Shown here: piece after piece, positions 36,735 to 39,844 of the stretch
Layout: every line of letters begins with the position of its first letter
How positions within the stretch are numbered: the stretch's first letter is position 1
Assembly (NCBI RefSeq): GCF_000325665.1
Contig: NC_019908.1
Span: 2,232,001-2,296,000 of the forward strand
Direction of reading: 5' to 3'
DNA length: 64,000 bases
From: Brachyspira pilosicoli P43/6/78
GTDB taxonomy: Bacteria > Spirochaetota > Brachyspiria > Brachyspirales > Brachyspiraceae
Notes under the pieces: generated by a model
What the model saw: only the letters and a program-made list of their open reading frames with translations
Database searches by the model: none
Told to the model about the DNA's origin: nothing
Position numbers and translations under genes: made by a program

Positions 36735-38714
36735 TTATCTTTTCTTTTTAGATTTCTTTTTTTCTTTTCTGCTTTTGTTTTTAAAAGGTTTAGATTTTCT
36801 TGAGTATATTTCTTTTTTATTCTTACTGCCTTTCTTCTTCTTTAAAAAATCTCTGCTGTCTATTATATCTCTGTCATCTAATGCATTATCAAATTCGCTT
36901 GCAGGCAAAAAGTCTATAAATAGCTCTTCTATATTTACTCTATGAACAACTATTCTTATTTTATCTCCAAGCGTATACCATTTAGCTTCTTCATTGCTGT
37001 ATGCTGCCTGCTCATTTTCATCATAATGATAATGATGTCTCAAATCTGCATATCTTATTAAGCCCTCTATTCCTCTATCTTCTATTTCAACAAATATACC
37101 AAATTTAGTAATGCCGCTTATGATGCCGTTGTATTCTTTGCCTACTTTTTCTTTCATAAACCTCGCAGCTTTTACTTTATATAAACTTCTCTCGCATTCC
37201 ACAGCAACTCTCTCTGTTCTAGAGCACCATTTAGCACAATTATCAAACATCTTTTGCATAGAAGGTTTCATATTTTGAGCACCTTCTAATGATAGTTTTA
37301 AAAGTCTATGTGTAAGTAAGTCAGTATATCTTCTTATAGGCGAAGTGAAGTGAGTATAATATTCAAAACCAAGACCGAAATGCCCTATATTATTAATATC
37401 ATATATAGCCTGCTTCATAGAGCGTAAGAGTAGGGTAAGCAGAAGTTTTTCATCAGGCTTTCCAATAATAGATTCTATAAACGAATGAAAATCCAAATTG
37501 CCTTCATTGTCAGTTGTAAGTCTGTAGCCTCTGTTGAATGCTATTCTTCTAAATGTGTCTAGCTTTTCAGAATCTGGACTGTCATGCACTCTATAAATGG
37601 CACCCTTTATATTTTTTAATCTCTTAGCAACCTCGCAGTTTGCAAGAAGCATAAATTCTTCTATTATCTTATGAGTCTCTTTTCTCTCACCTATAAAAAA
37701 GTCTTTTGGGTTTCCGCCTTTATCTAATATTATTTGTGTTTCATTAAGGTTAAACTCTATACTTCCATTATCTATTCTTTTTTGAAGAAGTATTTTTTTT
37801 ATGTCATCAGCATTTTTTAAAAGTTCTAATAGCCAATCTTCATCTTGTTCTATGCCGTCCAAAACATCTTGAGCATAATCGTAAGTTAATCTTCTGCTTG
37901 ACTTTATAACGCTTTTATGAAAAGTGCTTTCTTTTATATTTCCTTTATTATCTATAGTGATAAACACTGTCATTGTGAATCTGCTTACACCTTCATTAAG
38001 TGAACATATTCCATTTGAAAGCTCATGCGGAAACATTGGATATACTGTATCAATTAAATAAACACTATTTCCTCTCTTTCTTGCTTCCCTGTCTAATGCA
38101 GAACCCTCAGCTACAAAAAAACTTACATCAGCAATATGCACGCCTATTTTGTATCCGTCATTTAATTTCTCTACACTTATAGCATCATCAAAATCTTTAG
38201 AATCAGCGCCGTCTATTGTTACAGTTCTTATATTCCTTAAATCTATTCTGTCAAACTCAAGCCCAACATTTTCCATGCTATCTGGAAGTATTTTAGCTTC
38301 TTCAAGACATTTCTTTGGAAAATCAGTAGGTATATTATATGCATTAGCTACTATCTCAGCATCTTTTTTGGCATTGTTTATTTCTACTTTTATATCTGGC
38401 TTTTCTATAACATTAGTTTTAGTGCTGTTTTCTTTTTTAGATGTTTTTTTGGAAGAGGATTTTTTTAACTCTTGTTTTTTTGAACTTTGTCTTTCATCTC
38501 TTTCATTACTGCTTGAATCTAAATAGTATTTTCCTTCTTTTGTGAGTTTTAATACATCACCTTTTTTTATGATAAGCCCCATAGAACTAGCCTTATGAAG
38601 CATTTTATCGAATCTTAATTTATCTTTTTTATTTTCAACATATTCAGCTTTATAGTCTTTTATACTTACTTGACCTTTTTTATCTATTCTTCTTAACAAT
38701 TTAATCACTTTCAT
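36735..38714 (-). CDS. rnr: ribonuclease R (VacB/RNase II family)
   Basis: The 659-residue 3'-5' exoribonuclease starts with a winged-helix-type N-domain (to about 65), then a Lys-rich linker. The catalytic RNB domain has IDGADSKDFDDAISVEKL with the metal-binding Asp cluster near residue 180, and HFTSPIRRYTDL near 435. An S1 domain (GIISGITKFGIFVEIEDRGI) and a Lys/Arg-rich tail follow, normal for RNase R. The consensus promoter at 38724-38751 places the transcription start only 2-4 nt before the ATG and no Shine-Dalgarno is present, so the mRNA may be leaderless. Confidence 0.92.
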   Translation of the reverse strand: MKVIKLLRRIDKKGQVSIKDYKAEYVENKKDKLRFDKMLHKASSMGLIIKKGDVLKLTKEGKYYLDSSSNERDERQSSKKQELKKSSSKKTSKKENSTKTNVIEKPDIKVEINNAKKDAEIVANAYNIPTDFPKKCLEEAKILPDSMENVGLEFDRIDLRNIRTVTIDGADSKDFDDAISVEKLNDGYKIGVHIADVSFFVAEGSALDREARKRGNSVYLIDTVYPMFPHELSNGICSLNEGVSRFTMTVFITIDNKGNIKESTFHKSVIKSSRRLTYDYAQDVLDGIEQDEDWLLELLKNADDIKKILLQKRIDNGSIEFNLNETQIILDKGGNPKDFFIGERKETHKIIEEFMLLANCEVAKRLKNIKGAIYRVHDSPDSEKLDTFRRIAFNRGYRLTTDNEGNLDFHSFIESIIGKPDEKLLLTLLLRSMKQAIYDINNIGHFGLGFEYYTHFTSPIRRYTDLLTHRLLKLSLEGAQNMKPSMQKMFDNCAKWCSRTERVAVECERSLYKVKAARFMKEKVGKEYNGIISGITKFGIFVEIEDRGIEGLIRYADLRHHYHYDENEQAAYSNEEAKWYTLGDKIRIVVHRVNIEELFIDFLPASEFDNALDDRDIIDSRDFLKKKKGSKNKKEIYSRKSKPFKNKSRKEKKKSKKKR

Positions 38715-38723
38715 AATATTTTT

Positions 38724-38751
38724 ATTATAGCAGTAAAAGAGATAATGTCAA
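38724..38751 (-). promoter_or_regulatory. full-consensus promoter of rnr
   Basis: On the minus strand TTGACA (38751-38746), 16 bp and TATAAT (38729-38724), with an extended TGC before the -10 box. Nine bases separate the -10 box from the rnr ATG. Confidence 0.75.
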
Positions 38752-38776: not shown

Positions 38777-38910
38777 AAAAAATTAGCACCCCTACTATTT
38801 GTAAAGGTGCCAAAACAGTTTAATTAAATGAAGGTTATAAAATATATTGTATCAATTTAAGGATACAAAAAGAATTTGCTTAAAACAACTATAGTCTCTA
38901 ACTATTTGTT
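38777..38910 (-). ncRNA. candidate ~130-nt small RNA with own promoter and terminator
   Basis: A consensus promoter (38916-38943) and a strong terminator enclose this stretch on the minus strand, and no ORF explains it. The 5' end can form CTAAC-AAATA-GTTAG. A middle hairpin pairs TTGTATC with GATACAA. The 3' end is a 10-bp stem, GCACCTTTAC with GTAGGGGTGC (38810-38786), followed by TAATTTTTT. The RNA lies between a DUF4261-like gene and rnr, each with its own promoter. I do not recognise it as tmRNA, RNase P, SRP or 6S RNA. Confidence 0.6.
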
Positions 38911-38915
38911 AGTTT

Positions 38916-38943
38916 ATTCTAACATATTTTTAGAACATGTCAA
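38916..38943 (-). promoter_or_regulatory. promoter of the small RNA candidate
   Basis: On the minus strand TTGACA (38943-38938) and TAGAAT (38921-38916) are separated by 16 bp. Transcription should begin near 38910. Confidence 0.65.
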
Positions 38944-38989: not shown

Positions 38990-39844
38990 TTAATTTCTTT
39001 TTCCAGAAGCATATTCAAGAGTATTAATATCTAATACCTCTCTATACGGTTTAGTTAAAGATTTTTCGTATCTGCATAACCATTTTACGCCATTAAATAT
39101 ACTCTCTATTTCATCATTACTTTTTATAATGTTGCCATTTTCAAATATATAAGCAGCAATATTCATAGCATGCTGTATTATATTGTTTGGGTTCAAATCA
39201 TGGAAATGGTACTGAATATCAGAAAGCCCTATAGAATAAAGCCCAAAGGTATCAACTATCATATCATTAGTATTTTGCACTTTAAAAAATCTAATATTTA
39301 ATCCTGAATATAAGAATCTTAAATTTTTTGGGTATTGATTTTTTAATAATTGTTCTCTAAGTAAAATTTTACCGCTTTGTTCGTTATATACGGCAATAGC
39401 ATCAGGAAATATATTCAATGCTATATTAAGCCAATTGTTTAGTAGGGTAGTTCTGTCTTTATAATCTAATCCGCCAGCCAAAAAGTCGCTTAACATTACT
39501 TGATATTTGCACTCTTTTAATAATTCTTTAGTATCTTTTATATCCCAAGCCTGATTATAAACTTCATCGCTTATGCCATTATAATCAAACTCTATAGGCT
39601 CATACATAAAAACTTGAACACCCAATTCTTTATCATCTTGAAATTTTACTTTAAGGTCATTAATCATTATGCTGTATAGGTTTTTATCTTCAGAGATTGT
39701 TTCTATATTATTATATAGAGCTCTTAATTTTTGTTTTATCAATTCTATATTTGGCAGCTGTGGTTTCTCTTTAAATAAAATTTTATAAAAATATACATGA
39801 GAAAAAAGAGCCTCTTCAGTGCTTTCTAATTTTTTGTTATCCAT
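38990..39844 (-). CDS. uncharacterised protein, DUF4261-like
   Basis: The 284-residue cytoplasmic protein has no signal peptide or membrane segment. Two halves are visible. The first is acidic and mixed (ELGVQVFMYEPIEFDYN). The second contains VDTFGLYSIGLSDIQYHFHDLNP and NIAAYIFENGNIIKSNDEI, which resemble the end of DUF4261 proteins. The function is unknown in that family; members are often linked to toxin/immunity or SMI-like contexts. Here it stands alone behind a consensus promoter. Confidence 0.55.
   Translation of the reverse strand: MDNKKLESTEEALFSHVYFYKILFKEKPQLPNIELIKQKLRALYNNIETISEDKNLYSIMINDLKVKFQDDKELGVQVFMYEPIEFDYNGISDEVYNQAWDIKDTKELLKECKYQVMLSDFLAGGLDYKDRTTLLNNWLNIALNIFPDAIAVYNEQSGKILLREQLLKNQYPKNLRFLYSGLNIRFFKVQNTNDMIVDTFGLYSIGLSDIQYHFHDLNPNNIIQHAMNIAAYIFENGNIIKSNDEIESIFNGVKWLCRYEKSLTKPYREVLDINTLEYASGKRN

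Follow-up and report, generated by a model that had tools for sequence, protein, structure and literature searches.

A conserved small RNA gene upstream of rnr in Brachyspira is predicted to encode an iron-sparing RNA

We analyzed the region between rnr, which encodes RNase R, and the gene of a DUF4261 protein in Brachyspira pilosicoli P43/6/78. Coordinates are those of the window, the whole stretch of 64,000 nucleotides from which the region was taken. An earlier note on this DNA had proposed that a separate, undescribed RNA gene lies here, between a consensus promoter and a terminator. The features of the region, in the direction of transcription, are as follows.

38990 to 39844, minus strand: gene of the DUF4261 protein, the upstream neighbor.
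38916 to 38943, minus strand: sigma-70-type promoter TTGACA-16-TAGAAT, matching 11 of 12 consensus positions and present in all copies of the RNA gene.
38908 to 38923, minus strand: operator palindrome GTTAGAATAAACTAAC, overlapping the -10 box and common to feoAB, flavodoxin, and other iron genes.
38777 to 38910, minus strand: small RNA gene, with a predicted transcript of about 133 nt whose 5' end is placed from the promoter.
38847 to 38868, minus strand: 5' hairpin UUGUAUC-loop-GAUACAA, from the fold and the alignment.
38816 to 38842, minus strand: core UUUUAUAACCUUCAUUUAAUUAAACUG (27 nt), nearly invariant and mostly unpaired, the proposed base-pairing seed.
38777 to 38813, minus strand: intrinsic terminator, with a stem of 12 pairs (38813-38783) and a T run.
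38724 to 38751, minus strand: separate rnr promoter TTGACA-16-TATAAT, matching 12 of 12 consensus positions.
36735 to 38714, minus strand: rnr, the downstream neighbor, which is not a significant target of the core.

The enclosed stretch is noncoding and structured, as had been claimed: no open reading frame of at least 60 amino acids lies between the DUF4261 gene and rnr, and the 133-nt RNA has a predicted folding energy of -28.1 kcal/mol, lower than that of 199 of 200 shuffles (z = -3.1). The terminator is a hairpin followed by TTTTTT, a site of a kind seen once where shuffles predict 0.3; its stem has 12 pairs rather than the 10 first counted. Promoter-like motifs are common in this AT-rich DNA, and as a class they were not above chance (7 found, 10.5 expected), so the main reason to trust the RNA promoter is its conservation in relatives. 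As far as sequence can tell, this is a stand-alone noncoding transcript with its own promoter and terminator. The presence of a separate promoter for rnr also agrees with the earlier note. The -10 box of that promoter ends about 10 nt before the ATG (38751-38714, minus strand); therefore, the rnr mRNA of B. pilosicoli P43/6/78 is probably nearly leaderless.

A covariance scan against the whole of Rfam 15 found no family at gathering score, only chance-level matches at E values of 0.7 and worse, which agrees with the statement that no universal bacterial RNA fits. The best match below threshold was sau-41, with 19.9 bits against a cut-off of 80. Within Brachyspira, a DNA search of 61 genomes recovered the stretch at 76 to 98% identity, the closest being B. 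pilosicoli, and a covariance model matched 24 of 26 Brachyspira genomes at E ≤ 0.05 and none of 172 other genomes of the phylum. In a 25th, divergent genome (G009), the RNA was recognized by its core, with three differences. Judged by these searches, essentially all Brachyspira genomes that are complete enough have the RNA gene, many of them in two copies. Scanning 84,980 species genomes for the core returned 24 Brachyspira stretches, among which we counted G009 although it is filed as 'uncultured Spirochaetes bacterium', and six others. Core matches outside Brachyspira (Methanobrevibacter, Muricauda, Loigolactobacillus, Bacteroidales, and an uncultured bacterium) are not accompanied by the operator, and we treated them as chance.

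In the alignment, the conserved parts follow in a constant order: promoter, 16-bp palindrome over the -10 box, short hairpin, 27-nt core, and terminator hairpin. The core is identical in copies L001-L024, with single-base changes in some of the rnr-linked (type-B) copies and three differences in L026. It is nearly identical between species and paralogues, whereas the terminator sequence drifts with its pairing kept. Within the genus, the 5' hairpin shows only weak covariation, and different hairpins occupy the same place in L026, L041, and L024. Conservation of promoter and terminator in relatives, on which the earlier note let its proposal stand or fall, extends across Brachyspira for both. 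The anatomy, the lack of an Rfam family match, and the conservation of promoter, operator, core, and terminator all support a separate, previously undescribed RNA gene.

The 16-bp palindrome that overlaps the -10 box, GTTAGAATAWACTAAC, connects the RNA gene to other genes. Its exact sequence occurs at four places in the B. pilosicoli P43/6/78 genome, compared to 0.011 expected under a first-order Markov model.

Exact operator site 1: before feoAB.
Exact operator site 2: before an operon of a TPR protein, a YgbA_NO protein, and a DUF454-like protein.
Exact operator site 3: before a 48-amino-acid Cys-rich open reading frame.
Exact operator site 4: before the small RNA gene.

Tandem sites with one mismatch precede DUF3793 and flavodoxin, further sites with a single mismatch are found close to an Fe-S assembly cluster and to an ArsR gene, and in relatives the operator again stands before the same genes. 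Feo uptake and flavodoxin are standard low-iron genes, hallmarks of low-iron responses. Because the RNA gene has its operator in common with them, it would most simply belong to the iron-starvation regulon; its promoter carries that regulon's operator, as expected of an iron-sparing RNA. The Cys-rich open reading frame behind site 3 (L083, 1501 down to about 1300, minus strand) encodes a putative membrane protein that directly follows the operator and resembles FeoB-associated proteins (E 0.017, below the cut-off). Weaker sites resembling the operator (L084, L085, L094, and L097) occur close to genes for ArsR, Fe-S assembly, P-type ATPase, and peroxiredoxin, and some of these may belong to the regulon.

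A single Fur-family protein and a single DtxR-family protein are encoded in the genome, and either is a candidate repressor. No clear operator was seen at the gene of either one, and the palindrome differs from the textbook boxes of Fur and DtxR. The Fur-family protein has its best scores against PerR models, below every NCBIfam cut-off. That the only Fur-family protein is most PerR-like, that a DtxR-family protein is present, and that weaker operator-like sites occur near ArsR, peroxiredoxin, and P-type ATPase genes would fit a trans-acting RNA of the same anatomy that answers to zinc, manganese, or peroxide through a PerR-like or DtxR-like protein and acts on Fe-S targets for stress reasons. 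However, the exact operators precede feoAB and further genes of iron starvation, flavodoxin has near-exact ones, and we consider such a signal improbable.

We ranked possible targets of the core among 1183 gene starts, drawn from 60 evenly spaced 20-kb stretches plus the window and covering about half of the genome. Control seeds kept ACCUUC, and mean pairing energies were compared with those of 500 shuffled seeds. Gene starts overall showed no pairing excess (1.4% at the 1% level), which means a small regulon or one that is partly invisible. The best-ranked target in the genome, against control seeds that keep ACCUUC, was hydG, whose product is the FeFe-hydrogenase radical-SAM maturase (TIGR03955). 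Because hydG was picked as the top of this ranking, only its conservation is independent evidence: 18 of 23 genomes have the exact complement CAGTTTAATTA before the Shine-Dalgarno sequence of hydG, with variable flanks, while the orthologues L205 and L206 are without a good site. Ranking by the 17-base complement alone was uninformative (205 matches, 195 for the reversed control).

An unbiased scan of 26 genomes for AGTTTAATTA, then AGG, then ATG gave 68 matches, three of which lie in the RNA gene's own copies, whereas the reversed control gave 33. The genes that came up repeatedly encode HydG, a Cys-rich FMN dehydrogenase, and an FdxA-family ferredoxin of the 2x[4Fe-4S] type; the gene of a HoxE/NuoE-like [2Fe-2S] subunit was matched a single time. 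In 20 of 22 genomes, G009 included, AGTTTAATT follows a TATAAT box of the ferredoxin gene after only a few variable bases, which would place it at the 5' end of the mRNA, and the core also pairs with the Shine-Dalgarno sequence there (about -18 to -22 kcal/mol). At the FMN dehydrogenase, AGTTTAATTA occurs in 11 of 24, with a variant in the pilosicoli group, and several orthologues have no good site. The conservation at hydG, and the ferredoxin site, which was found separately, carry more independent weight.

Mean pairing energies were -16.9 for hydG (shuffled seeds, -7.7), -20.3 for ferredoxin (-11.4), and -14.2 for the FMN dehydrogenase (-8.5), and the number of shuffled seeds that did as well was 0, 0, and 2 of 500, respectively. 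In this genome, the predicted pairing at each of the three targets falls into two blocks that stay in register, one between the 3' arm and the upstream element and the other between the CCUUC block and the Shine-Dalgarno region. Pairing of both blocks at every target would explain why the whole core is nearly invariant. The RNA has conserved complementarity to the ribosome-binding regions of Fe and Fe-S protein mRNAs, again as expected of an iron-sparing RNA.

Two other candidates were set aside. The superoxide dismutase gene was third by z-score, but its predicted pairing is false, lying in the gene's own promoter, and a lipoprotein gene at 887054 with an 18-nt match has no iron link. Candidate targets in this genome only are leuC-like, iron-type alcohol dehydrogenase, and 2-oxoacid oxidoreductase subunit genes. 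Of these, the iron-type alcohol dehydrogenase at about 13306 of the window (plus strand) has AUGAAGGUU at its ribosome-binding site (-16.8 kcal/mol) and is a possible further target.

The ferredoxin element, situated at the inferred transcription start, is also where one might look for a protein-binding site. CAGTTTAATT in the target leaders would then be the DNA operator of a separate transcription factor, and its match to the core a coincidence or a decoy. The hydG element, however, lies within an operon, next to the Shine-Dalgarno sequence and directly behind the stop codon of the gene before it, rather than at a promoter, and the second RNA block, around CCUUC, pairs in register with the Shine-Dalgarno region at all three targets, which makes a DNA operator very improbable.

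Many genomes carry the RNA gene twice: one copy precedes rnr, and the other in most cases precedes a DUF486 gene. Genomes of the pilosicoli group have only one, usually between a DUF4261 gene and rnr. It is scarcely credible that the RNA is not free but a 5' leader or attenuator of rnr, as the rnr-linked copies in many species, which have no U run after the hairpin, might suggest, because rnr's own conserved promoter sits downstream of the RNA, other copies precede unrelated genes, and the terminator in the window has a T run. With regard to a free RNA, the placement beside rnr that the earlier note had called suggestive, but perhaps chance, is kept for one copy in many species and so is not pure chance; nothing indicates involvement of RNase R. 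As a target, rnr was rejected: its mean pairing energy, taken as a control, was -9.9 against -7.7 for shuffled seeds, of which 16 of 500 did as well.

The type-B copies (L031-L047) have a strong hairpin without a U run, followed by a conserved AAATGCTTTCT-like stretch; therefore, they may be processed or end differently. Two further weak covariance matches, G008:C1:1725521-1725614 (54.7 bits) and G007:C52:5831-5917 (38.4 bits), are possible third paralogues. In L032, L034, and L036-L038, the rnr start codon lies in AAAUGAAAGUUAUAAAAU, to which the core is complementary but for one mismatch (-13 to -14.7 kcal/mol). A more specific picture, which we hold to be rather doubtful, is of an Hfq-free spirochaete RNA with a 27-nt two-block clamp and two paralogues, one tied to rnr, that in the hyodysenteriae group may also bind the start region of rnr over about 18 nt with one mismatch and so couple RNase R to iron.

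Gene anatomy, conservation, the common operator, and conserved complementarity at target ribosome-binding sites can all be read from the DNA itself, and they make it likely that the gene encodes a repressor-controlled, trans-acting small RNA that is induced by iron starvation and spares iron by blocking translation of ferredoxin, HydG, and the Cys-rich FMN dehydrogenase. This goes beyond the earlier note, which had offered no such role: an iron-starvation operator in the promoter, together with conserved complementarity to Fe-S protein mRNAs, points to a likely function. Transcription, its 5' end, the iron response, the choice of repressor, and repression of the targets are predicted as follows. 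With plentiful iron, a metal-dependent repressor would occupy the palindrome over the -10 box and keep the RNA gene off; when iron is short, the repressor would leave and the RNA would be made. Its open core would pair in two blocks, AAUUAAACUG(U) with the upstream element CAGUUUAAUU and ACCUUC with the Shine-Dalgarno sequence, blocking translation of the FdxA-type ferredoxin, HydG, and the FMN dehydrogenase, and iron would be spared. The same repressor would release Feo iron uptake and flavodoxin, which is an iron-free substitute for ferredoxin.

In its predicted behavior the RNA is like RyhB of enterobacteria and PrrF of Pseudomonas, repressor-controlled RNAs of iron starvation that block Fe-S mRNAs near the ribosome-binding site. 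Unlike them, its targets suit an anaerobe (ferredoxin and hydrogenase maturation), and it has neither sequence nor Rfam similarity to them; by covariance-model match, it is not a member of RyhB, PrrF, FsrA, or the other curated Rfam 15 families. A search for Hfq gave no match in the B. pilosicoli P43/6/78 genome, while five control genomes gave matches, so the Hfq-dependent action of the RyhB family would not apply here. FsrA of Bacillus subtilis pairs with the Shine-Dalgarno sequence through a C-containing motif in an Hfq-independent setting and works with Fbp chaperones (PMC9410917). The Brachyspira RNA is alike in this motif and setting, but no homology between the two was found, and it has two pairing blocks in one near-invariant stretch. 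IsrR of staphylococci is iron-repressed from a Fur-box promoter and pairs with the Shine-Dalgarno regions of iron-enzyme mRNAs independently of Hfq (PMC9410917). The Brachyspira RNA is like it in predicted iron repression, in Shine-Dalgarno pairing with iron-enzyme mRNAs, and in the lack of Hfq, but it has one 27-nt core where IsrR has three separate C-rich regions, and it belongs to a different phylum, with no relation in sequence or synteny. Iron-sparing RNAs compared with IsrR share neither its sequence nor its synteny (PMC9410917), and the Brachyspira RNA, for which no homology to known ones was found, therefore looks like another that evolved independently. The best explanation is a functional analogue of RyhB, FsrA, and IsrR that is unrelated in sequence. 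In the open-access literature that we searched, we found no report of a small RNA or iron regulon in Brachyspira and none describing an iron-sparing RNA in a spirochaete.

Brachyspira includes the agents of swine dysentery and intestinal spirochaetosis, and for this genus the finding offers a defined operator and regulon, together with a predicted layer of post-transcriptional control, all of them testable. If true, the proposal would mean that an independent iron-sparing RNA with the same kind of targets operates in an anaerobe without recognizable Hfq, and it predicts a clear switch from ferredoxin to flavodoxin.
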